From a bacterium (GTDB lineage Bacteria > Patescibacteriota > Patescibacteriia > 2-12-FULL-60-25): 64,000 bases of DNA. Below are positions 3,101 through 54,790 of this stretch, piece after piece. The notes under the pieces were generated by a model, which was given only the letters and a program-made list of their open reading frames with translations, had not been told where the DNA came from and searched no databases. The position numbers and the translations under genes are program-made. The DNA lies in contig JAJYXM010000016.1 of the NCBI GenBank assembly GCA_021796435.1, positions 812,625-876,624 on the forward strand, read 5' to 3'. Positions within the stretch are counted from its first letter, which is position 1; every line of letters starts with the position of its first letter.

Positions 3101-3937
3101 TCACATCGCCAGAAGGGATAATCCGACGGCGCATAAGAAGAGCGCGATGAGTTTGATGGCGAGTTTTCTTTCGTGAAACGCGACTTTACCGCTCAAGACC
3201 GACCAAAAGACGGCAAGCGAACGTTTAGCTGCAACTATGACGGAAGCAGGGGCGAACAAGTAGGCATATGATTCGACCAAGCTACCAAGGGCAGCGATCA
3301 TCGATTGGCCTAGACTACGCCGGTGCCAAAATGCCTTGACTGCATCTTCCTTGTAAACGTATTTTGCCATGACAAAGAAAAAAACCAGCAAAAAGAAATT
3401 CACGATGGATTGATCGATTTCCGGTGAGTTATAGTTCGTGATGCTGTACTTATAAATACTGATAGTCAACGAAGCAAGGAACGCTGACAGCAAAGACAGT
3501 GCGGCTCCTTTACGACTCAATCCGTGGTTCATAAACAGGAAAAGCAAGGCCACCACTATGAACGCGACCCCCAACAACTGTAAGTAATCGAACTTGTAGG
3601 CAAGTACAAGATCATAAACCAATATAAGCGGGATGGTCAGAGTCCTCAAAAAACCATAAGTCGATCGGTCTGCTTTTGCGATTGCATGCAACGTAACAGA
3701 CGCGGTCAACATCTCAAGCACGACACGAATGGCAAGAAGGGGTAGGGAAGCCGAAGAAAAAACCAAACCATTCCGACGTATAACCAATATTACAATGAAG
3801 GCGATGGTGACAAGGCTCGAATTTATGAAACCAAAAGAAAACGGCGATTCGAGATGACGTCTGATACCGATTTTTCCGATTGACGTAGACAGTTCTTCAA
3901 AAAACGTACCCGCCAGCATCAACAAAACCCCAAACAT
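3101..3937 (-). CDS. DMT-superfamily (EamA-like) transporter
   Basis: A 278-residue hydrophobic protein with about ten membrane segments and the EamA two-repeat layout, unrelated in close sequence to the transporter at 436. MFGVLLMLAGTFFEEL at the N terminus and AKADRSTYGFLRTLTIPLILVYD at the end of the first half fit the family. I start it at 3937, not at the upstream start at 3979, because a perfect TATAAT lies at 3944-3949, six bases before this ATG. Transcription from it would begin at or next to the start codon, giving a leaderless mRNA. Substrate unknown. It stands alone, convergent with the operon on its left. Confidence 0.8.
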   Translation of the reverse strand: MFGVLLMLAGTFFEELSTSIGKIGIRRHLESPFSFGFINSSLVTIAFIVILVIRRNGLVFSSASLPLLAIRVVLEMLTASVTLHAIAKADRSTYGFLRTLTIPLILVYDLVLAYKFDYLQLLGVAFIVVALLFLFMNHGLSRKGAALSLLSAFLASLTISIYKYSITNYNSPEIDQSIVNFFLLVFFFVMAKYVYKEDAVKAFWHRRSLGQSMIAALGSLVESYAYLFAPASVIVAAKRSLAVFWSVLSGKVAFHERKLAIKLIALFLCAVGLSLLAM

Positions 3938-3943
3938 GCCTAG

Positions 3944-3949
3944 ATTATA
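3944..3949 (-). promoter_or_regulatory. -10 box TATAAT of the EamA gene; leaderless start
   Basis: TATAAT on the minus strand, six bases from the ATG at 3937. No good -35 is visible at 17 bases. The short distance means the transcript should start within a base or two of the ATG. Confidence 0.6.
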
Positions 3950-3984
3950 GCACGATGCGGAGCAATCGCTCCTGGCCAACGAAC

Positions 3985-4009
3985 AAGCGACGGGGGAGAT
4001 CCGTCGCTT
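3985..4009 (-). terminator. Hairpin terminator after the 85-aa gene
   Basis: Nine-base-pair stem AAGCGACGG with CCGTCGCTT and a 7-base loop, downstream of the minus-strand gene at 4031-4288. The following tract (minus strand CTTGTTCGTT) is only moderately T-rich. Confidence 0.5.
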
Positions 4010-4030
4010 TCTTGGTGAGTACGTGAGGCC

Positions 4031-4288
4031 TCAGCCGTACCAGAAGGTGTAGGCTCGACCGTCTTTCGAGCAGTGGACCTCGCGGCACAGGGGACCGAAG
4101 CTATCGCCGTCGGTCGTGATCCAGTCATGGACTTCGTAGCCCAAGACCTTGAGTCTGGGCTCAGCGACCTTTTCCTCCCAGTTGCGGTAGCGACCTTCAG
4201 ATCCACAGTAGTCGTCCAAAGAGACGTCTCCGAGGACTTCGAGGATTTCCTGGACCACAGCCTCTTCTGCTAGCAGTGCCTGTGACAT
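4031..4288 (-). CDS. Hypothetical 85-aa protein
   Basis: I do not recognise the family. The 85-residue product is acidic in its first half (QALLAEEAVVQEILEVLGDVSLDDY), then mixed, and ends in a GRAYTFWYG tail. Two Cys (CGS and CREVHC) could bind metal or be structural. It looks cytoplasmic, with no signal or membrane segment. The start at 4288 is chosen because AGAAAGG lies eight bases upstream; a longer version from 4354 has no ribosome site. It has its own terminator and a promoter that mirrors that of typA. It belongs to a small set of genes in this window with a clear Shine-Dalgarno site, unlike most host genes here. Confidence 0.6.
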   Translation of the reverse strand: MSQALLAEEAVVQEILEVLGDVSLDDYCGSEGRYRNWEEKVAEPRLKVLGYEVHDWITTDGDSFGPLCREVHCSKDGRAYTFWYG

Positions 4289-4344
4289 GAAAGACCTTTC
4301 TGCCGCCCGCTCTTGATTGAGTTTGGCGGCAAATCGAACGTTAC

Positions 4345-4373
4345 AAAATATCATATTTTTGCCTTTTTGTCAA
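4345..4373 (-). promoter_or_regulatory. Promoter of the 85-aa gene (TTGACA-17-TATTTT)
   Basis: On the minus strand TTGACA at 4368-4373, a 17-base spacer and TATTTT at 4345-4350. The -35 and spacer (ttgacaaaaaggcaaaaat) match 18 of 19 bases of the divergent typA promoter. Confidence 0.65.
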
Positions 4374-4412
4374 TATATACACCAGAAACGGAAACAGGAT
4401 TGCCCCAATTCT

Positions 4413-4441
4413 TTGACGAAAAGGCAAAAATCAGGTATCAT
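4413..4441 (+). promoter_or_regulatory. typA promoter (TTGACG-17-TATCAT)
   Basis: TTGACG at 4413-4418, 17-base spacer, TATCAT at 4436-4441, ATG at 4453. The start point should fall near 4448, leaving a leader of about five bases and no ribosome site. Confidence 0.7.
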
Positions 4442-4452
4442 CTGCCGACTAT

Positions 4453-6261
4453 ATGGAACTCCGCAATATCGCCATCATCGCCCACGTCGACCACGGTAAA
4501 ACTACCTTGGTTGATTCGCTTTTGAAGCAATCCGAAACTTTCAAGGAAAAAGGCCTGGAAGGCGATACGATCATGGACTCCAACCCGCTGGAACGTGAAA
4601 GGGGTATCACCATCTTCTCAAAGAACGCAGCCGTGGTTTATGGAGGAGTGAAAATCAATATTGTCGATACTCCAGGACATGCTGATTTCGGCGGCGAGGT
4701 CGAGCGCATCATGAACCTTGTAGACGGCTGCCTATTATTGGTAGATGCCAAGGAGGGCCCGATGCCTCAGACAAGATTTGTACTCAAAAAGGCTTTGGAT
4801 GCCGGCCATCGAATCATTTTAGTAATCAATAAGATAGACAAGCCCGAAGCCAGACCTGACTGGGTTTTGGACCAGACGTTCGACCTCTTTGTTTCACTTG
4901 GCGCTACGGATGAACAGACGGATTTTCCGGTAATTTATGCTTCGGCCAAACAAGCGAAAGCTGGTTTTGAGCCAGACTTGGCAGCAATGACGGATATCAA
5001 GCCTTTATTCGAGACGATAATCAAAGAAATCCCTGCTCCCAAAGTCGACGCCGAAGGCCCACTCCAGGTTTCAGTCGCGAACGTCTCTTACGACAACTAC
5101 AAAGGCAAAATCGGCATCGGTCGCGTACGTCGCGGAGTCTTCAAACCCGGTTCAGTCGCCTGGATCAACCGCGAAGGCGTAGTCAGCCCAGCAAAAATTT
5201 CGAGCTTGATGATTTTCGACGGCATGGGAAGGACAGAGGTAGCAGAAGCCCCAGCTGGTGAGATAGTGGCTTTTTCAGGCATCGAGGGCGTCAATATCGG
5301 TGAGACTGTCGCCGATATCAACCATCCGGAAGCTTTGCCTGTACTGAAGATAGAAGAACCGACGGTCAAGATGACTTTTGGCGTCAATACTTCTCCCATG
5401 GGTGGTCAGGAAGGGCAATACACGACTTCACGCAATATCAAGGAAAGATTGGAGCGCGAACTGCAGAATGACGTGGCGCTGCGCGTCGACTCGAGTGAAA
5501 GTACCGACGGTTTCGAGGTATCCGGGCGCGGTGAGTTGCATCTTGCGATTCTGATCGAAAAAATGCGCCGTGAAGGTTATGAGCTTCAGGTCTCAAGGCC
5601 GCAAGTCATCTTCAAGACAATAGATGGCACAAAACAGGAACCTTTCGAGGAAGTCTCCATCGAGGTACCGGAAAACATGAGCGGTACGGTCATCGAGAAG
5701 TTAGGCAAACGCAAGGGCGAGATGAAGGACATGCGTTCAGAGAACGGCACGACCTACATGGAGTTCGAGATACCTACGCGCGGCCTTATCGGCTACCGCA
5801 ACGAATTCGTGATGGATACGCGCGGGCAAGGCATCCTGAATGCGCTATTCATCGGCTACCGCCCATACATCGGAGAGATTGGCAACATGAACCATGGCTC
5901 GCTCATCGCACATGAAACAGGCGAGAGCAACTCATACGGCCTCAAGATGGCGCAGGAGAGGGGACAGTTGTTCATCGGTCCTGGCGTGCCGGTCTATGAA
6001 GGCCAGGTGATCGGACAGAACGCTAAACCAGAGGATCTGGTAGTGAACGTGTGTAAAGAAAAGAAACTCTCGAATATGCGTTCCAAGGGCGATGGCGTCG
6101 CCTTGGCCTTGGATGTCCCACGGCACATGGGCTTGGAAGAAGCTTTGGAATACATAGGAGACGATGAATTGGTGGAAGTGACGCCAAAATCAATCCGCAT
6201 CAGAAAGACCTTGCTGAAGGACTATCAACGCAAACGCGCTTCTGGTGGCAGCCAAGAATAA
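4453..6261 (+). CDS. typA: Ribosome-associated translational GTPase TypA/BipA
   Basis: A full-length 602-residue TypA/BipA, the EF-G-like GTPase that binds the ribosome and helps 50S assembly and growth under stress. GTP-binding motifs are intact: G1 HVDHGKTT (residues 11-18), switch-region RERGITI (about 48-54), G3 DTPGH (72-76) and G4 NKID (126-129). Domains II and III follow, then the BipA-specific C-terminal domain with GRGELHL and the late motif [10 protein letters not shown]. The length is normal for the family. The start follows the divergent promoter by about ten bases with no Shine-Dalgarno. It is a single-gene unit closed by a strong terminator. Confidence 0.97.
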
Positions 6262-36305: not shown

Positions 36306-37274
36306 ATGTCCAAATTTACAGGTTCCCGCATTGATCTCGGCGTAGGCAAAGAAACCGTCCGAGGCACGGCCGTAGCCCCGGGCTATTGGCTCCGTCCGTC
36401 TGAAGTTTCTATTGATGAACGCGTCGCGCATGCGGTCGACGAGTCGTCCCGCAATCTCATCGAGAATTCCATCGACGCCCAAGTCGTGGAGAAATTCGCA
36501 GCAGGAAGCTTCACGCTCCCTGTCCGAGACAAGTCCATCGGGTTGCTCATGCTGTCGCTATTCGGATCCGTTACCGACACGACCGTCGAAACCGGCGTCT
36601 ACGACCATGCGTTTTCCGTGCTGCAGTCCAACCAGCACCAATCGCTTTCCGTGCACCTCAAGGAGCCGAACGCGGGCAAGGACTACGCGCTCGCCATGCT
36701 GACCGATCTCGAATTCGCGGTCGAGCTCGACAAACACGCGATGGCCAAGTTCGGATTCCGTTCCAAGACGGGAGCGTCGCAAGCACGCACCGCAACCTAC
36801 GTCGCAGAAAATATTTTCTTGCCGACGATGGGAGATATCCGGCTCGCATCCAGCATTTCCGGATTGAACGCCGCCACGCCGATCAAGGTGCGGAAGGTGA
36901 CGGTCAAAATCGGGAAGAATGTGGACGACGACCGAGCACTGGGCAGCGTCGACCCGATCGACATCCTGAACCGCCAATTTCAAGCGGAAGGCGAGCTCGA
37001 ACTCGTGTATGACGACCAGTCGCAAGTCACTAACCTGCTCGGCAATACGGCTCAAGCGCTCCGCGTCGATTTCCTGAATTCGGCGGTCACGATCGGCGTT
37101 TCATCGAGCCCGCGCATCCGATTCGAATTCGCCAAGGTGATTCTCGAAGAAGTCCCGCGCAAATTCAACAAGGGAGACATCGTCACCCAGACGCTCAAGT
37201 TCAAGGCGTATTACTCCGAAACGGATTCGTCGATGCTCACGAGCACCGTACGGAACACGGTCGCGAGCTACTGA
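36306..37274 (+). CDS. Phage major tail tube protein
   Basis: A 322-residue protein, strand-rich throughout. The N-terminal GSRIDLGVGKETVRGTAVAPGYWLR and the later pattern VEKFAAGSFTLPV, LLMLSLFGSVTD and VYDHAFSVLQSNQHQSLSVHL match the family of siphovirus tail tube proteins found in many prophages. The protein stacks as rings to make the non-contractile tail. No sheath gene is present, so the tail is long and flexible. Confidence 0.8.
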   Translation: MSKFTGSRIDLGVGKETVRGTAVAPGYWLRPSEVSIDERVAHAVDESSRNLIENSIDAQVVEKFAAGSFTLPVRDKSIGLLMLSLFGSVTDTTVETGVYDHAFSVLQSNQHQSLSVHLKEPNAGKDYALAMLTDLEFAVELDKHAMAKFGFRSKTGASQARTATYVAENIFLPTMGDIRLASSISGLNAATPIKVRKVTVKIGKNVDDDRALGSVDPIDILNRQFQAEGELELVYDDQSQVTNLLGNTAQALRVDFLNSAVTIGVSSSPRIRFEFAKVILEEVPRKFNKGDIVTQTLKFKAYYSETDSSMLTSTVRNTVASY

Positions 37275-37357: not shown

Positions 37358-37600
37358 ATGGACCCATCTCTCCTTAAGGATCTCGGGAGCCTCGGTCCGG
37401 CTCTCGGATCCGTGGCCGTCATCGGAATCATCTGCTGGAAGCTCTTGCAGATATTCGAAAAACACGGCGCAGCCATCGAAAGTTTTTCTGCAGCCCTCCA
37501 AGGGCAGACCGAAGTGCTGAAAGAAATCGACAAGAACATGCAGGCCAACACCCAAGCTACCGAACGCATGTCTATGCTGCTCCAAAAATCACCCAACTAA
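37358..37600 (+). CDS. Holin candidate, 80 aa
   Basis: One membrane helix (about residues 12-31, GPALGSVAVIGIICWKLLQIF) is followed by an amphipathic, coiled-coil-like tail (about 35-75). This is the layout of single-span BhlA/UviB-like holins. It lies 250 bases upstream of the amidase gene, as in lysis cassettes. Confidence 0.65.
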   Translation: MDPSLLKDLGSLGPALGSVAVIGIICWKLLQIFEKHGAAIESFSAALQGQTEVLKEIDKNMQANTQATERMSMLLQKSPN

Positions 37601-37626
37601 TCCATTCATTCTTTAACCTCACTCAT

Positions 37627-37842
37627 ATGCTTTACCGATTCATCAAGAAGGACGGGAACGTCGAACGCATCGGCGATATCGATGCCGAATCTCTCGAAAC
37701 CAAGCTTCAGGGCTACCTGAACGACGGATTTGAACTCGCGACAGCCGAAGAACACGACCAGCAAGTCATCGGCGCCGTGAACAAACAGCTCGAAGAAGCG
37801 AACGCCAAAATCGCCGAGCTCGAAGCAAAGACCGCCTCCTAG
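37627..37842 (+). CDS. Hypothetical phage protein, 71 aa
   Basis: A 71-residue protein with a small alpha/beta start (MLYRFIKKDGNVERIGDIDAE) and a coiled-coil end (VIGAVNKQLEEANAKIAELEAK). No family recognised. It lies between holin and amidase. Confidence 0.5.
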   Translation: MLYRFIKKDGNVERIGDIDAESLETKLQGYLNDGFELATAEEHDQQVIGAVNKQLEEANAKIAELEAKTAS

Positions 37843-37857
37843 GCGGTCTGTTTCTAT

Positions 37858-38427
37858 ATGCAGAGAAAGCTATTCGTCGATCTTGGCCATTCTAAACGAT
37901 GGCCAGGAGCAGTCGGCATCAAATCCGAGGTTGATTGGAATCGCGCGATCTGGGCATCGCTTCAACCCATACTCCAAACACTTTGCGCGAAGAAGGGCTG
38001 GACACTCATTCCTGTCCCCACAAGCTTTTTTATTGAACTCTCGGCGAACAGCAATCTTGTCCGGCGCATCAAGTGGATCAACGCGCGTTCAAAGCCATCA
38101 GATCTTTTGCTTTCGATCCATGGCAATGCCGCGACCAATCCGAATGTCAGAGGTGTCACAACGTGCTTCATAGGCGGTTCAGAGTCGGCGAGACTTGAGG
38201 CAATCAAACTTTCCCAAGCCTACTCGCAGGCTACGGGAGTACCCGTTTGGAATGGGGGAGCGTTCGACGATCGAAACGGACGATTCGGAAGGATAGGAAT
38301 GGTACGGGACACGACGCCGTTCGCATTGCTGGTTGAGGCGGGATTCGTTACGAACCGGCAGGATATGGCAACGGATATCCAAAAAGCAGCGCAGGGCATT
38401 GAGTCTTTTTACGCAGCAAATTTTTGA
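37858..38427 (+). CDS. Endolysin: N-acetylmuramoyl-L-alanine amidase (Amidase_3)
   Basis: A 189-residue zinc amidase that cuts the bond between MurNAc and L-Ala in peptidoglycan. VDLGHS at the start gives the first His, LSIHGNA (about residues 85-91) the second, and LLVEAGFVTNRQD (about 160-172) the catalytic Glu. EVDWNRAI provides the other zinc-side Glu. No cell-wall-binding domain is attached. It shows that the host wall contains peptidoglycan, in line with PBP2 and Alr in the window. Confidence 0.9.
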   Translation: MQRKLFVDLGHSKRWPGAVGIKSEVDWNRAIWASLQPILQTLCAKKGWTLIPVPTSFFIELSANSNLVRRIKWINARSKPSDLLLSIHGNAATNPNVRGVTTCFIGGSESARLEAIKLSQAYSQATGVPVWNGGAFDDRNGRFGRIGMVRDTTPFALLVEAGFVTNRQDMATDIQKAAQGIESFYAANF

Positions 38428-38535
38428 TAAGCAAAATCGCGCAATAATCACGCACAGATCGCGCAAAGTTTTTTGAAAATACTCTTGTGGACAATCCGCT
38501 CTCCTCGACTGGGCGGATTGTTATTTTTATCCCAT

Positions 38536-38850
38536 ATGAAAATCGATCTCTCCAATGCCCAATGGGCGGAAGTCAAAGACTCATTCAGCTGGGGCGAACG
38601 CCGCCGAATGCAGGAGGCAAGTCCCTACGCAAAAGCCAAGGAAGGCGAGACTGTCGAACCGAGCCTACTCAACGATTGGTCGGCTAACTTACTGACGAAA
38701 TTCGTAACCGCTTGGTCATTTGAAGAACCGATCACGAAGGAGTCGCTCGAGAACAATCTCACAGCCGCAGAAGGGGAGAGTTTGCTCGATCAAGCCCTCC
38801 AAGCAATCGGTTTCCGCTCCAAGCCTGAAGACGGCCCAAAAGCGCGTTAG
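38536..38850 (+). CDS. Tail assembly chaperone (gpG-like), 0-frame product
   Basis: A 104-residue protein between lysis and tape measure genes, the position of lambda gpG. I start at ATG 38536. It is helical and acidic in its second half. Near its end it carries CCCAAAA at 38835-38841, with codons CCA AAA in frame, a perfect X-XXY-YYZ slippery site, seven bases before a stable hairpin. Ribosomes that slip by -1 continue to 39038 and make a longer gpGT-like protein. Confidence 0.8.
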   Translation: MKIDLSNAQWAEVKDSFSWGERRRMQEASPYAKAKEGETVEPSLLNDWSANLLTKFVTAWSFEEPITKESLENNLTAAEGESLLDQALQAIGFRSKPEDGPKAR

Positions 38851-38881
38851 AGCACCTTGTCGAGGGACGAGGTTCCGCTCT
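38835..38881 (+). promoter_or_regulatory. Programmed -1 frameshift signal (slippery site plus stem-loop)
   Basis: CCCAAAA at 38835-38841, a 7-base spacer, then outer stem AGAGC/GCTCT (38849-38853 with 38877-38881) around an 8-bp inner stem ACCTTGTC/GACGAGGT with loop GAGG. The 0-frame stop TAG is at 38848. The -1 frame is closed by TGA at 38826, upstream of the slip, and open downstream to 39038. Confidence 0.88.
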
Positions 38882-39038
38882 GCTCATATCCGAGCGCGAT
38901 CTCGCCCTCGCGAGCAGAAGGATCGAAGCGTTCCTGCTCTGCCGCGAGTTTGGCTGGACGTGGCGGGATCTTGAGGACGCACCGGCAGACGTCGTCGAAG
39001 ACTTTCTATACCTCCTAACCCATGGCAACAAACGCTAA
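38842..39038 (+). CDS. -1 frame extension of the tail chaperone (gpGT-like)
   Basis: The -1 frame has no start codon of its own and adds about 65 residues after the slip, for a fusion of about 167. The extension is protein-like: LLISERDLALASRRIEAFLLC, then EFGWTWRDLEDAPADVVEDFLYLL. The second part resembles the T domain of tail chaperones, which recruits tail tube protein to the tape measure. It ends 17 bases inside the tape measure gene. Confidence 0.8.
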
Positions 39039-45705: not shown

Positions 45706-45759
45706 ATCCTTGATTTATTGGGGTATCTGTGTTATTTTTCGGTTAAATATAACATTTTT

Positions 45760-47598
45760 ATGATGAAGTTTTTGGCATCAAAACAGGGGAAGCGAGCGCG
45801 TGCTTTTTTGATTTTAAGTTTTTGCGCCGTAGTATTCTTTGGTTTTGCTGCCTTGAGCGCATCGGCCTATCAAGAAAAATACGCCGATCGCATTCATCCA
45901 GGAGTCACCATCCAAGATCTTGAAGTCGCGGGCATGTCAAAAGAACAGGCATTTCAAACTCTTGACAACAAGGCTGATGAGGCTTTGAAAGATGGATTAC
46001 GTTTTTCATATCAAGGGAATATTGTGGTGCTGCCTGTCATTCTTAGGAAAGCAGACGGTACCCATGGGCATCAATTTATCGATTTCAACTTTAAGCAGGC
46101 CGTTGATGATGCGTATACAAAAGGGAAGGAGGGAAGTGCACCTGAAAAAGTATTAGAAGGAATCAAGCTATTTGTATTCTCAACGGATGTTCCATTGGAA
46201 ACGAGAGTTGACGAATCTGCTTTAGAGAAGGAATTGAAGAATAAACTTGCAAATGTATTCGTAGCGCCTCAGGATGCAAAGCTTGATTTTGAAATCTCAA
46301 AAACTGGAAAAGCAATTGTCACTGTACAATCTGAGCAGCAGGGTAGTGCTCTTGACCTGCTCTTTTTATCAAATACGTTGAAGAGCCAGGCAAAAGATTT
46401 GAATTTTATTGCTGTTCAAGTAAACCCCAAGGCCCTGTACCCGTCACTGTCCTCAAAAGACGTTGAGCCACTTATTTCTCAGGCTGAGAGCTGGCTAAAG
46501 CGAGCTCCATTGAAACTTGTAGGGGAGGGAAAGACGTGGTCGATTGATGAGAAGATGCTTTCCAGATGGATCACTGCATCATCAAGCAATGCCGGTGCAG
46601 TTTTAACCCTCGATTCAAAGGTCGCAAAAAGTGATTTTGATGCCTTAATGAAAGGCATTTTGCAAGAGCCAAAAAACGGTAAGCTCGTTCTTGAGGGTGA
46701 GCAAGTCAAGGAATTTATTGCTCCGCAACAGGGTATCATCTTAAATTTACAGGCGAGCCTTGAAAGAGTTGAGCAAAGCCTCGGCCGTGGCGCCACAAGC
46801 ACGGATCTAGAGCTTCGACGAGAAACGCCGGTAATCGAGGGTACGGATGCCGAGCGTCTTGGGATTCGTGAAGTCGTTGGTTTAGGACGCTCTGACTTTT
46901 CGGGTTCACCTACTAACAGACGGAAGAATATCGCTCTTGGCGCATCTAGGTTGAATGGGATCATCCTTGCCCCGGATGAAGAATTTTCTATGTTAAAAGC
47001 GCTTGGGACCATCGATCAGAAGCACGGATGGTTGCCCGAGCTTGTTATCAAGGAGGGCAAGACCGTTCCGGAAGATGGCGGTGGGTTGTGTCAGATCGGT
47101 ACGACTGCCTTTCGTGCCGCTCTGGATTCAGGCCTGCTCATTACCCAACGCCGCAATCATAGTTATCGTGTCCGCTATTATGAACCTGCGGGGACAGACG
47201 CAACGATTTACGATCCGCAGCCAGATTTTCGTTTTAAAAACGACACCGGCAACTCTGTGCTGATTACGACGGCGATCAGGGAGGATGAGGTTGTTTTTAC
47301 TTTTTGGGGAACAAAAGATGGGCGTGTTGTTGGAGAAATTAAGCCTCGTATCTTTAATATTGTTCCGCCACCACCAAAAAAGACTATTCCCACGACAGAT
47401 TTACCAGTTGGAAGAACGAAATGCACCGAATCAGCGCATGCTGGCGCGGACGCATCTTTGGATTACGTCGTTACTTACGCAAATGGTGAAGTAAAGAAGG
47501 AGACTTTTAATAGTCATTATGTGCCTTGGGGCGCAGTCTGTTTGGTGGGCGTTGAAAAAATGCCTGAGGAAGGTGCGGCTTCAGGCGTTGTTAATTAG
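45760..47598 (+). CDS. VanW-family envelope protein with PG-binding domains
   Basis: A 612-residue protein from ATG 45760. A signal anchor (about residues 14-37) is followed by two PG_binding_4-like repeats (HPGVTIQDLEVAGMSKEQAFQTL) and the VanW domain (about 380-540) with NRRKNIALGASRLNGIILAPDEEFSM, GGGLCQIGTTAFRAAL and NHSYRVRYYEP. VanW is linked to glycopeptide resistance clusters, but its reaction is unknown. A G5-like end with Cys follows. TATAAC six bases before the ATG suggests a leaderless mRNA, unlike a late phage gene, so this is probably the first cargo gene. Confidence 0.88.
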   Translation: MMKFLASKQGKRARAFLILSFCAVVFFGFAALSASAYQEKYADRIHPGVTIQDLEVAGMSKEQAFQTLDNKADEALKDGLRFSYQGNIVVLPVILRKADGTHGHQFIDFNFKQAVDDAYTKGKEGSAPEKVLEGIKLFVFSTDVPLETRVDESALEKELKNKLANVFVAPQDAKLDFEISKTGKAIVTVQSEQQGSALDLLFLSNTLKSQAKDLNFIAVQVNPKALYPSLSSKDVEPLISQAESWLKRAPLKLVGEGKTWSIDEKMLSRWITASSSNAGAVLTLDSKVAKSDFDALMKGILQEPKNGKLVLEGEQVKEFIAPQQGIILNLQASLERVEQSLGRGATSTDLELRRETPVIEGTDAERLGIREVVGLGRSDFSGSPTNRRKNIALGASRLNGIILAPDEEFSMLKALGTIDQKHGWLPELVIKEGKTVPEDGGGLCQIGTTAFRAALDSGLLITQRRNHSYRVRYYEPAGTDATIYDPQPDFRFKNDTGNSVLITTAIREDEVVFTFWGTKDGRVVGEIKPRIFNIVPPPPKKTIPTTDLPVGRTKCTESAHAGADASLDYVVTYANGEVKKETFNSHYVPWGAVCLVGVEKMPEEGAASGVVN

Positions 47599-47644
47599 GA
47601 AGATGGCTAGGATTAGCCATGTTTTTATGATCGGATAATCGCTC

Positions 47645-47673
47645 TTGTTTGATGGAATCGTAGGTGTTATTAT
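47645..47673 (+). promoter_or_regulatory. Promoter TTGTTT-17-TATTAT, leaderless
   Basis: TTGTTT at 47645-47650, 17-base spacer, TATTAT at 47668-47673, ATG at 47681. Only seven bases separate the -10 from the start codon. Confidence 0.7.
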
Positions 47674-47680
47674 TTCGCCG

Positions 47681-48082
47681 ATGGAATTCAAGAAAATAAC
47701 TGCTCTGTTTTTATTAGTAATCCTGGGAGTTTTTTCAGTCATTTTTTCAGTTTGTCAGCCATTTTTTTTGAATTCGCAAAACCTAGCCGTTGCTGCCGAG
47801 GTTGGAAAGTGTCAACCGTGGGTTCCTATTGATCAGTGTGATGCAACACATTCTTCATGTGAAGTCGCTTGTTATGTCAGTTGCCATCGTATTGACACGA
47901 TTAACAGCCAATCAAATAGTCGATGTCAAGAACTGAAAAATACCATTGCGACGAGAACTTCTTTATTCACAGAGATAGACCTTCGACAAGAACCACCGGT
48001 TGGTTTCTTTCCTCCGAGACTTGCGTTTGACCCATTGAACATACAAAAAAGATTAGCGTCTTTGGGGGTATACATATCTTAA
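47681..48082 (+). CDS. Secreted cysteine-rich protein, 133 aa
   Basis: A signal peptide or anchor (about residues 6-40) precedes a small domain with eight Cys, arranged as KCQPWVPIDQCDATHSSCEVACYVSCHR and SRCQEL. Multiple disulfides are expected outside the cell, so it is a likely client of the thioredoxin-fold proteins encoded just downstream. No family recognised. ATG 47681 is set by the promoter. Confidence 0.65.
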   Translation: MEFKKITALFLLVILGVFSVIFSVCQPFFLNSQNLAVAAEVGKCQPWVPIDQCDATHSSCEVACYVSCHRIDTINSQSNSRCQELKNTIATRTSLFTEIDLRQEPPVGFFPPRLAFDPLNIQKRLASLGVYIS

Positions 48083-48157
48083 AGAATGAGTTTTGAAAAC
48101 GTAGTTTTGCTGCGCTTTTTGGTATTTACGAATTAATTCATTATTCATTACGACTAT

Positions 48158-48937
48158 ATGCTTGATCAAACTCAAATCCCCCCAAAGTACGCCTTCTATA
48201 TGGGACTCGCCGTCTCAATAGCGATTTGCAGCACTGCGGGCGTAATTTTCCTAGGGTCCATGTTTTTAAAGGGTGGTTTTACTGACACCGCGAAAGCCTC
48301 GGCACCCTCTCTGGCGGCAGCTGCGCCACAAAGACAAGCGCCATCGCCAGGCAACCAGGGACAGCCGGACGAGCCAGTGGCTGGACCGGTAAAAGCCGTT
48401 GATCCAAAAGTCGACCACATCCGTGGCGATAAAAATGCGAAAGTTTTCGTGATTGAATATTCGGATTTTGAATGTCCTTTTTGTATCCGCCATCATCCGA
48501 CGTTGCAGAAACTGGTGGAAGAATACAAAGGAAAAGTCGCATGGGTCTATCGCCACTTCCCGCTTAGCTTCCACCAAAACGCACAAAAAGAAGCAGAGGC
48601 TTCTGAGTGTGCGGCCGAACTTGGCGGGAATGATGCATTCTGGAAGTACGCAGACAAGATTTTTGAGCGTACAAAGGGCAACGGAACCGGCTTCGCGCTG
48701 GATCAATTAGTGCCATTGGCAAAAGAGATCGGCTTAGATGAAGGAAAATTCAAAACCTGTTTGGATAGTGGCAAATACGCACAAAAGATCCAAGACGAAA
48801 TGAATACAGGCTCTACGGCTGGTATCAATGGAACGCCAGGGAATATTATCTGGACCAAAGACGGTAAAACACAGATTCTTTCAGGCGCTGTGCCGCTTGA
48901 TTCTTTGAAAGCCGCCATTGACCCTCTGTTGAAATAG
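48158..48937 (+). CDS. DsbA/BdbD-like thiol oxidoreductase, membrane-anchored
   Basis: A 259-residue protein with an N-terminal helix (about residues 12-36), an Ala/Pro/Gln linker (45-75) and a DsbA-like domain. The active site is FECPFCIRHHP (CPFC, about residues 105-108), and GINGTPGNIIW supplies the cis-Pro. It would oxidise or isomerise thiols of exported proteins. First of three thioredoxin-fold genes in 3.9 kb. Confidence 0.9.
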   Translation: MLDQTQIPPKYAFYMGLAVSIAICSTAGVIFLGSMFLKGGFTDTAKASAPSLAAAAPQRQAPSPGNQGQPDEPVAGPVKAVDPKVDHIRGDKNAKVFVIEYSDFECPFCIRHHPTLQKLVEEYKGKVAWVYRHFPLSFHQNAQKEAEASECAAELGGNDAFWKYADKIFERTKGNGTGFALDQLVPLAKEIGLDEGKFKTCLDSGKYAQKIQDEMNTGSTAGINGTPGNIIWTKDGKTQILSGAVPLDSLKAAIDPLLK

Positions 48938-48962
48938 AGCTGAGCGAGGAAGTCGGAAAATT

Positions 48963-50159
48963 ATGCAATTAACGACGAATATAAATGAAAGTGACTTCTC
49001 GTATTTGGACGATAAAATTGTCTATCTTGATTCAGCGTGCCAGACATTGCGTCCTCAGCAGGTCATTGATGCCATGGCGGAGTACTACCACAAATATAAT
49101 TCTTGCGGCGGACGGGTAAAGTACAATTGGGGCGTAAAACTTGATGAACAAATACGGGAGACAAGAAACAAGGTGCTGTCATTTGTCGGAAAGTCGCCTT
49201 CGGAGTATGCCGTGGCGTTTACGCTCAACACCACTTATGGCGTCAATTTGGTTCTGGGTCAGTTGCCATTCAAATTCAAGAGAATCGTAACTTCTGACAT
49301 TGAACATAATTCGGTGTTCTTACCGACGATGACAGCCGCAAAGAGAATGGGGATTCCGCGGATTGTGTTTCAGCGTTTAACGGACGGGTCGCTGGCATAC
49401 GAAAAGGACGATCTGTCTGGAGCGGTCGTGGTTCTGAATAGCATGTCCAATATAGATGGCCGCGAACTCGTGAATTTGAAAGAAGTTGCCAGCGACGCTC
49501 ATAAGGCAGGCGGGATAGTGCTTATTGATGCCGCTCAAGGCATAAGCCATGGACAAGAGATCATACGCGAGAGCGGCTTTGACGGACTATTCTTTTCCGG
49601 TCACAAGATGTATGGACCCAGTATCGGGGTAATTGTTATCAAAAAATCCCTTCTTACGGAGCTCGATATCAACTTTATCGGTGGCGGTATGGTTGAAGGC
49701 GTGGAAGCTGAAGCATACCGGCTGATATCAGATCCGGACGATTTGAGCAGCAGACTGGAGGTCGGCTTACAGGATTTCGCTGGAATTATCGGCCTGAATG
49801 CCTGCCTCGACTGGCTTAAAAGCTACAGACCAGCAGGAATGTCCGCCGATACCCATCAAGGACAGCTTGCTAAGCTCCTTTTTGAGGAGCTCTCCAAAAT
49901 CTCAGGGTTGAGACTTATTAACAGCTCGCCTAGTCCTATTGTGAGCTTCTATTCGGACAAGATCGACGCTCATCGGTTGGCAATATTCCTTTCCGCTCAG
50001 AATATTATGGTGCGGAGCGGTTACTTCTGCTGTCATTACTATCTGAAGAATCTGAAGTTGTATCCGCCTCTTGTGCGAGTCTCGCTCGGTCTTAACAATA
50101 CGAAGGAACAGGTCAAATCGTTCGTAAAAATCTTACAAACGATAATGATTCATGCTTAG
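48963..50159 (+). CDS. Cysteine desulfurase-like aminotransferase class V
   Basis: A 398-residue PLP enzyme of the SufS/CsdA group. IVYLDSACQTLRP at the start, DIEHNSVFLPTM, VLIDAAQGISHG, FFSGHKMYGPSIGV with the PLP Lys, and VRSGYFCCHYY near the end with the catalytic Cys are in place. It removes sulfur from cysteine for Fe-S clusters or other thio-cofactors. There are no SufB/C/U genes next to it; a ferredoxin is encoded 5 kb downstream in the same cargo. Its place between two Dsb-like genes is unusual. Confidence 0.88.
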   Translation: MQLTTNINESDFSYLDDKIVYLDSACQTLRPQQVIDAMAEYYHKYNSCGGRVKYNWGVKLDEQIRETRNKVLSFVGKSPSEYAVAFTLNTTYGVNLVLGQLPFKFKRIVTSDIEHNSVFLPTMTAAKRMGIPRIVFQRLTDGSLAYEKDDLSGAVVVLNSMSNIDGRELVNLKEVASDAHKAGGIVLIDAAQGISHGQEIIRESGFDGLFFSGHKMYGPSIGVIVIKKSLLTELDINFIGGGMVEGVEAEAYRLISDPDDLSSRLEVGLQDFAGIIGLNACLDWLKSYRPAGMSADTHQGQLAKLLFEELSKISGLRLINSSPSPIVSFYSDKIDAHRLAIFLSAQNIMVRSGYFCCHYYLKNLKLYPPLVRVSLGLNNTKEQVKSFVKILQTIMIHA

Positions 50160-50162
50160 AAT

Positions 50163-51236
50163 ATGTTTTGCATCGCGGCATTTATCATTTTTGCGATCTT
50201 AGGGATTTTTTCAGCCAGCTACAGATCTTTGGCGAAAAAAGCCTGGAAGTGCACGCTTCGAAAGATGACCTTTAGGCCATGTGATATTAACTTTCAGGAA
50301 GAGGCCAAGGCTAGGCTCTTGGGAAGATTCGTGATCACCAGGCCGCGATTAGCCAAATTCCTTGATCGCTGGATCGGGGTATTTGCTTCGGCCTTTGTCA
50401 TTCTGAGCGCTTGGAGCCTTCTTGTGGTCTTGAACAGCGGACTCAATCTCCTCGTTTACGATACATGCAATCCGAACAATGCCGAATCCTGTTCGTTAGC
50501 TGGAGAAGCCTGTGGCATAACATCAGGAAAACCGGGCTTTTGGCTATCATTAAAAGAAGGACAAATAATCGCCTGGGCTAAAGACGGCGTGTTCACACTT
50601 GGCGATACCATAACGATGATCCCGAATCGGTTCAAGGCATGGAATCCGAAGGAATTCATATCTGACTCCAACACTTATTACAAACAATACGATTCGAACA
50701 AGCCAGTAGCTCTTGAAATAATCGATCCGAGTTGCAAGTTTTGCGCCAAGCTGTTCGGTAACATCAAAGAAACCGGTTTTGCAGATAGATATAACCTCAC
50801 GTACTTGTTATATCCGATTCCGGATACGAAACAGCCGGGTGGGTATCGCTTCCCGAACTCCAAAATGATTGCCTTATATCTAGAAGCGGTAAAGCTCAAT
50901 CCATTAATTTCGACCGCTACGCCGGCGGATTGGCAGATTTTGGAAAGGGTATTCGCCGGAAAAGACACGGATAATGTTGATTACCAAATTAAATTCAATA
51001 CGGTATATACAGCCCAAGAAGCCGAAAATGTGATTCTGTCTTGGCTTAAGGATATTGGGTATATCGACGCACAGATAAGCAAGATACGAGAAACGGCCAA
51101 TTCTGATGATGTATGGGCAAGTTTAGTTAAACAAAGAGAGATAGTAAAAGATAGAATACATACGATCAAAATACCCACGATCATGTTTGACGGCAGGAGG
51201 TATGATCGGGCGGTGGGTCCGGAAAAGCTCAAATGA
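50163..51236 (+). CDS. Membrane protein with C-terminal thioredoxin-fold domain
   Basis: A 357-residue protein with membrane segments at about residues 2-20 and 73-95, a Cys-rich loop (TCNPNNAESCSLAGEACG) and a thioredoxin-like domain with EIIDPSCKFCAKLF (CKFC, about residues 191-194) and cis-Pro in IKIPTIMF. It starts three bases after the desulfurase gene. The combination of a Cys-rich loop and CxxC suggests a membrane electron-relay partner of the soluble Dsb-like proteins, in the way VKOR/DsbB or DsbD partners work, though it is not clearly either. Confidence 0.75.
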   Translation: MFCIAAFIIFAILGIFSASYRSLAKKAWKCTLRKMTFRPCDINFQEEAKARLLGRFVITRPRLAKFLDRWIGVFASAFVILSAWSLLVVLNSGLNLLVYDTCNPNNAESCSLAGEACGITSGKPGFWLSLKEGQIIAWAKDGVFTLGDTITMIPNRFKAWNPKEFISDSNTYYKQYDSNKPVALEIIDPSCKFCAKLFGNIKETGFADRYNLTYLLYPIPDTKQPGGYRFPNSKMIALYLEAVKLNPLISTATPADWQILERVFAGKDTDNVDYQIKFNTVYTAQEAENVILSWLKDIGYIDAQISKIRETANSDDVWASLVKQREIVKDRIHTIKIPTIMFDGRRYDRAVGPEKLK

Positions 51237-51260
51237 TTTGACATTAATAAACGCATTACC

Positions 51261-52052
51261 ATGGAACTAACTGAACAAGAAAACCATATACTTACTAAGC
51301 GAGAACGAAAAGAACTGCGGCGACAAGAAAAAGCCAGGGAAGAACAGACGCGACAACGCTCAAATGTAAGAAAGAAGTGGACAAAGCGAATCGCACTCGC
51401 ACTCGTTATCGCTGGGTCAATCGGCGGATTTTTCTGGTACGAATCAGGCAGACCAAAGGTCTCCACCGACGAACTACTCACAGTGGCCGCGGACGATTGG
51501 ATTAAAGGGAATAAAGACGCTTCCGTTACGCTCGTTGAATATTTTGATTTTGAATGTGAGGCGTGCGGTGCGTATTATCCGGTTGTGAAACGATTGGCTG
51601 AAGAGCTTGGTAACGAGGTACGGTTCGTGAACAGATATTTCCCCTTACCTGGACACAAAAACAGCATGACGTCAGCACTTGCGGTCGAAGCCGCCGGCAG
51701 ACAGGGGAAATATTGGGAGATGCATAATATTCTTTTTGAAAATCAGAGAGACTGGGGGGAGAGACAGGCGTCCGATCCCAAAATCTTTGAAAACTACGCA
51801 CGGCAAATAGGACTCGATATGGAACGTTATGGTAAAGATATTGCCTCGCAGGAAGTAAAAGACCGTATAGAACGAGATCTCAGGGCGGGGCAGGAACTTG
51901 GCCTTGAGGGCACCCCTTCATTTTTTCTGAACGGCAAAAAGATAGAAACCCCACGCGGTTACGAAGCCTTTAAGACATTGATACAGTCAGCTATTTCTGA
52001 ATCGTCAAAACCACTTAATGGTCCGACTTCAAGCAATGCCTTAAATGAATAA
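51261..52052 (+). CDS. DsbA-like thioredoxin-fold protein
   Basis: A 263-residue protein with a charged cytoplasmic head (about 1-48, many Arg, Lys and Glu), one membrane helix (about 52-70) and a DsbA-like domain. The active site FECEACGAYYP (CEAC, about residues 96-99) and LEGTPSFFLNGKKIE with the cis-Pro are present. Unlike its upstream relative it has CEAC instead of CPFC, so its redox potential probably differs. Confidence 0.9.
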   Translation: MELTEQENHILTKRERKELRRQEKAREEQTRQRSNVRKKWTKRIALALVIAGSIGGFFWYESGRPKVSTDELLTVAADDWIKGNKDASVTLVEYFDFECEACGAYYPVVKRLAEELGNEVRFVNRYFPLPGHKNSMTSALAVEAAGRQGKYWEMHNILFENQRDWGERQASDPKIFENYARQIGLDMERYGKDIASQEVKDRIERDLRAGQELGLEGTPSFFLNGKKIETPRGYEAFKTLIQSAISESSKPLNGPTSSNALNE

Positions 52053-52111
52053 GACTTCTCTTTCTAATTCATTCCAAATCAACTTATTATTAATTCTCTG
52101 CAATAAATATT

Positions 52112-52783
52112 ATGCTTGACGCACAAAGAACGGATAACGATACGGGCGCCGAAATTACATCTGAAAACAACAAAGCGAAGACCAAATCACCAACTTCTAA
52201 ACGATTTTTCTATTACGGCCTTTCCATTGGAGCTGCTATACTCATTCTGATCACGTGCGCATGGTTAGGTCGAGGATTGTTCGTCGCGGCAGTTGTGAAC
52301 GGAACCCCTATCAGCCGACTTTCTGTTGTTAGTAGTTTAGAAAAACAATCCGGTAAAACCGCACTCGAGTCACTCATCAGAAAAAAGCTGATTGACGATG
52401 AGACGCGCAAAAAGAATGTAACCGTAACGGATGACGAGATCGGAAAAGAACTCAAGCAAATCGAAGCGCAGGTCGCTTCGCAAGGAGGGACGCTCGTAGA
52501 TGCTCTTAATGCGCAGGGCATGACGATCAATCAACTACGGGAGCAGATTGAGATCCAGAAAAAGATAGAAAAGTTACTTGGGGATTCGGTATCGGTGAGT
52601 AATGAAGAAGTGGAGGCCTATATCTCCGAAAACAAAATCGAACTCCCGAAAGACAAGCAACCCGAAGAAGCAAAAGCGGCACTGAAAGAGCAACTCAAAC
52701 AGCAGAAATTCCAGCAAGCGGCTCAAAAATGGGTGTCTGATTTAACCAAGAACGCGAAAATTCAGTATTACGTTAATTACTAA
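52112..52783 (+). CDS. SurA/PrsA-N-like membrane-anchored chaperone
   Basis: A 223-residue protein with an anchor (about residues 34-52) and a SurA N-terminal-like domain: VVNGTPISRLSVVSSLEKQSGKTALESLIRKKLIDDETRKKNVTVTDDEIGKEL. The peptidyl-prolyl isomerase domain of full PrsA is missing; the C terminus is coiled. It would help exported proteins fold next to the Dsb-like enzymes. Confidence 0.8.
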   Translation: MLDAQRTDNDTGAEITSENNKAKTKSPTSKRFFYYGLSIGAAILILITCAWLGRGLFVAAVVNGTPISRLSVVSSLEKQSGKTALESLIRKKLIDDETRKKNVTVTDDEIGKELKQIEAQVASQGGTLVDALNAQGMTINQLREQIEIQKKIEKLLGDSVSVSNEEVEAYISENKIELPKDKQPEEAKAALKEQLKQQKFQQAAQKWVSDLTKNAKIQYYVNY

Positions 52784-52825
52784 TTACATGAAATTGGCTA
52801 ATGAAAAATAGAAGAGTAGGCTATC

Positions 52826-54790
52826 ATGGACGCTATGACCGACATTGAGCTCAAAACATCAACATGTGACCATTGCGAGTCCGATGCGAAAAAAGCTTCG
52901 GGCAGTGTTCCCGTAGTTAATTGGAAAAAGATTCTCACCATAATATCGGCATCCTCGCTCGTATTGGCTTGGGTTTCAGGATGGCTTTCGCTACCCGAAG
53001 CGATGGTGAGGTACCTTTACTACTTCTCAATTGCGTCAGGTGGTTATTTTGTTGCGTTGGCCGCTATACGAGGTCTCTGGCGCCAGCGGTTTCTGAATAT
53101 TGATTTTTTGGTCACGGTGGCGGCTATTGGCGCGATCTATATCAATCAACTTGCAGAGGCGGCTTCTGTGATCCTTTTCTTTTCTCTGGCGGAGTTTTTT
53201 GAAGATTTTGGAATGGAAAAATCGAAGAAAGCCCTCGAATCTCTGTTAAATAAATCTCCACAAACCGCCTCACTAAAAAATGGAAAGACTGTTTCCGTAG
53301 AGGATGTCAAAATCGGCGATATCGTCATTGTGAGGCCTGGAAATCTTGTACCGATGGACGGTGTCGTAGTTGAGGGCATCTCTTCAATCGATGAAGCCAC
53401 GATCACAGGTGAGTCGATCCCGAAAGATAAGCGAGAAATGGATACGGTTTTCGCCGGAACTTTGAACCAAAATGGCTATTTGGAAGTGCGCGTAACAAAA
53501 GAGAGTAAAGATTCAACATTCGGGAAAATAATTCAGCTCGTAGAACGCGCACAAGCTTCGCGTGCTCCAGTGCAGGAGTTTATCGACACATTCGCTAAGT
53601 ATTACACACCGGCCATCGTCGGGATCGCATTTCTCATGGCCACTGCTCCACCTGTTTTTTTTGCCGGTGTATTTCAGGATTGGCTGTACAGGGCGCTTGT
53701 TCTTCTTGTGATCGCATGTCCTTGTGCCCTGGTCATTTCTACTCCCGTTGCCATCGCCTCGGCAATTGGTGGCGGGTCACGTCGGGGTATTCTTATCAAG
53801 GGCGGCAAGTATCTTGATCTATTAAGTCGCATTAAAGCAGTGGCTTTTGATAAGACGCGAACGCTCACTGAAGGGCGTCCTATCATTTCCGAAGTTGTGA
53901 CGTTTAATGGATTTAAAGAGGAAGACGTTATTGCTGACGCTGCGGGCATTGAGACTTTTTCGTCCCATCCGTTGGCGCAGAGCATTGTCGAATTCGCGCA
54001 GGAGCGAAAAATCGTTCCACATGCCATGAGTACATATGAGAACGTAGCTGGAAAAGGGGGAAAGGCGGTTTGCCTCATCTGCAACGATCTCAAGCACTGC
54101 ATCGGAAACCTAAAATTCATTGGAGCAGAAAGTACAACTGGTGAGGAGATTATTTCGAAAACGGGAGAATACGAAAAACAGGGAAAGACGGTTGTATTGA
54201 TCAGCGAAGGGGACCGAGTTATGGGCGCCTTAACGGTTGCTGACAAAATACGGGACAGCTCTAAAAAGACCATACAAAAACTAAAAGAGCAGGGGGTCGA
54301 ATCTGTTATTCTGACCGGTGATAATCAACATACGGCTGACTTTGTTGCGAAAGAAGTGGGTATTAAAACGGTTTACGGATCGCTTTTGCCCGATGAGAAG
54401 GTTAAGAAAGTAGAAGAATTAAAAACTCAATTTGGAACGGTCGCAATGGTTGGAGACGGCGTAAACGACGCACCGTCCCTGGTCACTGCTAACGTGGGTA
54501 TTGCGATGGGTGCAAGCGGGAGCGATGCGGCTATTGAAACAGCTGATGTTGCACTTATGAATGACAATCTCCTGAATGTACCAACGGCGATTCAGCTTGG
54601 AAAACGAACAGTGAAAACGATACGTCTAAATATTGCCGCCGCTCTCGGGGTCAAAGCGTTTTTCCTCGTTCTAGCCTTGGCTGGTTTCACGCATTTGGAA
54701 TATGCTATCGGGGCCGACTCTGGGATGGCGATGTTGGTTATTTTGAATGGTCTTCGTTTATTTTCCGTCGAAAAACCATCTGACCCTTAG
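52826..54790 (+). CDS. Heavy-metal P-type ATPase (Zn/Cd type) with altered DKTGT motif
   Basis: A 654-residue P1B ATPase. TGES (about residues 194-197), ACPCALVIS (C298 and C300), SSHPL, TGDN and GDGVNDAP are all normal, and the last helices have LGVKAFFL and ADSGMAMLVILNGLRLF, as in Zn/Cd exporters. The phosphorylation motif reads DKTRTLT at residues 342-348 instead of DKTGTLT; codon 345 is CGA (53858-53860), one base from GGA. The N terminus has only a CDHC-type pair (TCDHCES). The change may impair transport or be a sequence error. Confidence 0.9.
   Translation: MDAMTDIELKTSTCDHCESDAKKASGSVPVVNWKKILTIISASSLVLAWVSGWLSLPEAMVRYLYYFSIASGGYFVALAAIRGLWRQRFLNIDFLVTVAAIGAIYINQLAEAASVILFFSLAEFFEDFGMEKSKKALESLLNKSPQTASLKNGKTVSVEDVKIGDIVIVRPGNLVPMDGVVVEGISSIDEATITGESIPKDKREMDTVFAGTLNQNGYLEVRVTKESKDSTFGKIIQLVERAQASRAPVQEFIDTFAKYYTPAIVGIAFLMATAPPVFFAGVFQDWLYRALVLLVIACPCALVISTPVAIASAIGGGSRRGILIKGGKYLDLLSRIKAVAFDKTRTLTEGRPIISEVVTFNGFKEEDVIADAAGIETFSSHPLAQSIVEFAQERKIVPHAMSTYENVAGKGGKAVCLICNDLKHCIGNLKFIGAESTTGEEIISKTGEYEKQGKTVVLISEGDRVMGALTVADKIRDSSKKTIQKLKEQGVESVILTGDNQHTADFVAKEVGIKTVYGSLLPDEKVKKVEELKTQFGTVAMVGDGVNDAPSLVTANVGIAMGASGSDAAIETADVALMNDNLLNVPTAIQLGKRTVKTIRLNIAAALGVKAFFLVLALAGFTHLEYAIGADSGMAMLVILNGLRLFSVEKPSDP

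Follow-up and report, generated by a model that had tools for sequence, protein, structure and literature searches.

Within a prophage, or what remains of one, in a Patescibacteria genome, two overlapping reading frames very probably encode a pair of tail assembly chaperones of the lambda G/GT type, made by a programmed -1 ribosomal frameshift. The 0 frame encodes a short protein, G, and the -1 frame an extension, T, which would be produced as a G-T fusion. The whole stretch of 64,000 nucleotides that was analysed is called the window below. It was compared with a close relative, the viral contig IMGVR_UViG_3300022666_000338, which appears under the handles L004, L014 and L017, and with more distant homologues in viral contigs and in Patescibacteria genomes.

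Anatomy and gene context of the junction

The features of the window are as follows.

36306..37274, plus strand: tail tube or major tail protein, 322 aa; Pfam Phage_tube_2 (E 2e-15); 38% identical to the tube protein of G012, another Patescibacteria genome
37858..38427, plus strand: amidase endolysin, context outside the frameshift, between tail tube and G; Pfam Amidase_3 (E 1.3e-13); present in L017
38536..38850, plus strand: G, putative 0-frame tail assembly chaperone, 104 aa; open reading frame from ATG 38536 to TAG 38848-38850
38835..38841, plus strand: candidate slippery heptamer C_CCA_AAA, read in the sequence; unchanged in L004/L017
38841..39038, plus strand: T, putative -1 extension, 65 codons and stop, without a standard start; phrog_9001 (E 5.5e-4); hhalign to sister T domains (E 4.5e-9)
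38848..38850, plus strand: 0-frame stop TAG, two codons past the heptamer; kept in L004
38849..38881, plus strand: stem of a 5-bp outer and an 8-bp inner helix; fold z -2.5; within bases identical in L004
39022..41346, plus strand: tape measure protein; phrog_27166 (E 2.2e-33), Pfam TMP_2 (E 1.8e-6)

All the elements named in a preliminary description of this DNA lie where it had placed them. CCCAAAA is in phase with G, as claimed, and the two codons GCG CGT separate it from the TAG of G. The -1 frame, described as closed upstream, startless and open for 65 codons, is closed by a TGA at 38826-38828, contains no ATG, GTG or TTG, and runs open from 38829 to the TAA at 39036-39038; the predicted G-T fusion has 167 aa, 65 codons of it after the slip. 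The end of T overlaps the start of the tape-measure gene by 17 nt. The expected 8-bp hairpin within a 5-bp outer stem begins 7 nt past the heptamer. Its outer helix pairs AGAGC (38849-53) with GCTCT (38877-81) and its inner helix pairs ACCTTGTC (38854-61) with GACGAGGT (38866-73), including one G.U pair, around the loop GAGG. The predicted energy was -22.3 kcal/mol for 61 nt, a value matched by 3 of 200 shuffles. Adding flanking sequence to 38920 allowed a competing fold to win, and adding it to 38960 brought the described stem back. An Rfam search of the window returned no match.

The slippage itself, its rate and the roles of the two products in assembly we infer as follows. Most ribosomes would terminate at TAG 38848 and yield the 104-aa G. 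A smaller number would pause at the stem, both tRNAs would slip back one base at C_CCA_AAA, and the slipped ribosomes would read on through T and release the 167-aa fusion. If lambda is a guide, G, both free and as part of GT, would coat the tape measure protein encoded by the gene that follows, T would bring in the tail tube protein, and both chaperones would have left by the time the tail is finished.

T might instead be translated alone, with initiation at a non-AUG codon or reinitiation by ribosomes that have terminated at the end of G; in that case there would be no fusion. Termination-reinitiation is common in phage operons, and the -1 frame of the window does hold a few near-start codons, namely CTG 38880, ATA 38886, ATC 38922 and CTG 38934 and no others. 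This account is contradicted by the lack of ATG, GTG and TTG codons in the T frame of L017 as well as of the window. The frame is also closed only 6-7 nt before the heptamer, and an in-phase heptamer is kept through several letter changes across relatives (see below), which independent initiation would not require. We consider separate translation of T very improbable.

The lambda slip site is GGGAAAG, whereas the window has CCCAAAA; the window also differs from lambda in having a lysis cassette between tail tube and G, and the two G proteins show no detectable similarity. What the two systems share is the position before the tape measure gene, a short G with a -1 extended GT, and an X_XXY_YYZ site near the end of G (PMC5009743). 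In the lambda model, G and GT, the rarer of the two, attach to the tape measure protein, T brings in tail tube subunits, and both chaperones depart before the tail is complete; such -1 G/GT frameshifts before tape measure genes are widespread in long-tailed phages (PMC5009743). The earlier label 'lambda-like' thus holds for mechanism and gene order but not for sequence, as sequence homologues of G were detected in one contig only. The identification as a gpG/gpGT-type chaperone pair is supported by the tube and tape-measure context, by the match of T to the PHROG tail assembly chaperone family phrog_9001 and by the conserved junction, and 'textbook' is a fair word for this -1 frameshift.

G alone had no significant family match (best E 0.05-0.1, to chaperone families), and its profile found nothing useful among solved structures. 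The predicted model of G is all-helical (pLDDT 70.5), which it has in common with the YqbN/HK97 gp13/Rbstp2171 fold. Its best match to a solved structure was a weak one to YqbN (3KLU; Z 4.4, rmsd 4.2, 70 residues aligned), followed by a match at Z 2.6. YqbN is a phage tail assembly chaperone, and a similar Z level was reported for another divergent chaperone-like protein (PMC9603447). With a model confidence of 70, the 3KLU match is below the level that would prove a shared fold and too weak to establish that of G. With the G and T models as queries, Foldseek found no match in BFVD at E 0.001, although a few low-ranked matches of the G model carry a tail assembly chaperone annotation. The G-T fusion had no match at E 1 among 50,697 phage records.

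G and T immediately precede the tape measure gene and lie downstream of the tail tube gene, from which G is separated by three lysis-region ORFs. These form a lysis-like cassette at 37358-38427 (an 80-aa ORF, a 71-aa ORF and the Amidase_3 endolysin). The same cassette is present in L017 (2459-3529) and absent in G012 (L184), where G directly follows the tail tube gene. L017 has two extra ORFs between endolysin and G (3568-4459), encoding a 181-aa protein with a zinc-peptidase-like TIAHEIAH motif and a membrane-like protein, so that the gap between endolysin and G resembles a hot spot for insertions. The short gaps upstream of the endolysin (37829-37849, z -5.8) and of G (38491-38521, z -4.3) each hold a strong hairpin that resembles a terminator, inside what is expected to be a single tail operon. 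L017 also has a terminator-like hairpin before G (4471-4495, z -2.7), with another stem sequence.

We scanned for the bare pattern, defined as an ORF with a slip site near its stop and a -1 extension of at least 40 codons. It occurs five times in the window, counting both strands, and is therefore weak evidence when taken alone; position and homology make the evidence strong. Among 75 viral contigs, collected solely through their tape-measure protein, the regions upstream of the tape-measure genes gave 45 matches in 90 kb (0.50 per kb, at 43 of the 75 loci). The background in the same contigs was 0.022 per kb: outside those regions, 548 kb of the same strand held 12 matches, and 637 kb of the opposite strand held 14. 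The pattern is thus 23-fold enriched upstream of the tape measure, in a set of contigs that are not all independent.

Conservation of the junction in a close relative

The contig of L004 and L017 is a 90% identical relative with the same genes as the window. G of L017 is 89% identical in protein, with a nucleotide divergence of about 15% and changes in 37 of 101 codons. The heptamer and the stop are unchanged and the stem falls within 72 identical bases (38844-38915), so the expectation that aligned relatives would keep both heptamer and stem was borne out here. In the T frame we counted 11 synonymous and 2 nonsynonymous codon changes relative to L017. On this comparison of codons, selection at the protein level is evident, and the -1 frame is maintained as protein.

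Codon changes are scarce around the junction. Only one of the first 25 T codons is changed, a lower proportion than in G (Fisher p 0.001) and than in the tape measure gene (p 0.0004). The unchanged run relative to L004 extends over 24 codons at the junction (p 0.004), compared with 20 codons at the start of the tape measure gene (p about 0.03-0.04), and we regard the run at the junction as only moderately unusual.

The same comparison bears on whether G and T are one normal gene that was split, either by an indel introduced in sequencing or assembly or by a mutation that arose recently as the prophage decayed. Loss or gain of a single base would produce just such a pair of frames, and the window may derive from an assembly of uncultivated material. 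This account is contradicted because the identical junction stands in an independent viral contig, despite the divergence in G. Homologous T domains elsewhere also lie in a separate -1 frame, and no in-frame fusion was seen. A broken gene is thus a highly improbable source of the two frames. One apparent in-frame G-T fusion, a 269-aa open frame in G012, was rejected: here the -1 frame happens by chance to stay open across the G ORF, at a normal -1 overlap with AAATTTT.

T domains and slip sites in distant relatives

In six viral contigs (L007-L012) a homologous T stands behind a different G, and the heptamer AAATTTT is followed directly by TAG. The T of the window is homologous to that of these contigs and of L182 (the hhalign match listed above). 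A profile search for T in 381 class-level and 380 phylum-level genomes found it in 12 other Patescibacteria genomes. The junction of one, G148, is cut by the contig end, which leaves 11 testable junctions.

AAAAAAA: G121, G150, G539 and G397; T in the -1 frame
AAATTTT: G012; T in the -1 frame
AAATTTA: G593; T in the -1 frame
GGGTTTT/TTTTTTA: G528; T in the -1 frame
AAATTTT/TTTTTTA: G374; T in the -1 frame, site 9-14 codons before the stop
TTTTTTA: G313; T in the -1 frame, site 9-14 codons before the stop
C_AAT_TTC, non-canonical: G579 (L192, reverse strand about 1483-1540); T in the -1 frame, conserved stem present
Run of ten A: G314 (L187); T in the +1 frame

A canonical heptamer with T in the -1 frame was found at 9 of the 11 junctions. 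The site of G579 possibly works by slippage of one tRNA. In the lineage of G314, the +1 frame of T after ten A suggests transcriptional slippage or a different shift. An automatic count placed a heptamer at at least 16 of 19 junctions, against about 3 expected from codon shuffles; 16 is a lower bound, as L012 was counted as a +1 overlap yet has AAATTTT-TAG.

Distant homologues do lose CCCAAAA. The preliminary description had named such a loss, together with that of the stem, in homologues that keep the two frames, as an argument against frameshifting. Yet another canonical heptamer takes its place in the nine Patescibacteria junctions and in all six AAATTTT viral relatives, so that the loss of CCCAAAA supports frameshifting rather than refuting it. 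L007-L012, G012 and G593 resemble the window in their homologous T with the motif CREFGWTW, the -1 shift, a stop near the heptamer and a downstream stem; they differ from it in heptamer and stem, and in some of the contigs T is separated from the tape measure by small ORFs.

The stem of the AAATTTT-type sites was aligned in nine sequences. Its positions were paired in 96.6% of cases, compared with 46-55% when the stem was slid along the alignment; three pairs were changed on both sides, and none of 500 shuffles reached the covariation score. The stem of the window was compared in two sequences only and is identical in them, and thus shows no covariation itself.

The frame could also be changed by transcriptional slippage, with RNA polymerase rather than the ribosome responsible, through the insertion or omission of a base. 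Some relatives have long A runs at their junctions that fit such a process, above all the ten A of G314 with its +1 T. In the window, however, CCC is followed by no more than AAAA, and the run in the AAATTTT relatives is five T long; runs as short as these are poor substrates for transcriptional slippage. These short homopolymers, together with a stem at ribosomal spacing that is kept with compensatory changes in relatives, contradict this explanation, and we give it hardly any credence for the window.

It is possible, though somewhat less likely than not, that phages of Patescibacteria have their own clade of frameshifted tail chaperones. A single T-domain family would then extend across many host families, with its slip site swapped repeatedly (CCCAAAA, AAATTTT, AAAAAAA, AAATTTA, GGGTTTT; in G314 perhaps a +1 or transcriptional event) and the frame relation mostly constant.

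Host and significance

The preliminary description had placed the frames in a prophage of the candidate phyla radiation (CPR), and the surrounding genes agree with it. The phage block is flanked on both sides by genes for BipA, ribonucleotide reductase, SerRS and LysRS, and lies on a contig of 1.52 Mb in a genome of 1.63 Mb. The LysRS is closest to that of Ca. Uhrbacteria (66%), followed by Ca. Magasanikbacteria (60%). Judged by LysRS affinity and by the flanking host genes on so large a contig, the block is a prophage or prophage remnant in an Uhrbacteria-like Patescibacteria genome.

Host-like genes also occur at 45718-54790, between the tail genes and a XerC-like integrase (55991). They encode a VanW protein, apparent thioredoxin-fold or DsbA-type proteins, a class-V aminotransferase and an apparent P-type ATPase (52826), and their GC content is about 0.45, compared with 0.55 in the phage part.

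The mechanism has long been known, while its presence in this host group appears to be unreported in the literature searched: our search found no paper joining G-T frameshifting to Patescibacteria. Two Burkholderia phage papers containing CCCAAAA were considered as reports of a slip site and rejected, since the letters stand in ribosome-binding-site text.

The finding extends G/GT frameshifting to phages that infect a large section of the bacteria, one that has scarcely been brought into culture, here with an uncultivated bacterium of very small genome as host. It brings no new principle. The practical gain lies in annotation, as a T-domain profile lets gene callers recover a part of the protein that is otherwise missed, and in a supply of natural slip sites for testing. 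Most interesting is the repeated replacement of one slip site by another within a single T-domain family, which, if true, would amount to a natural experiment on which slippery sites work on the ribosomes of bacteria with reduced genomes.
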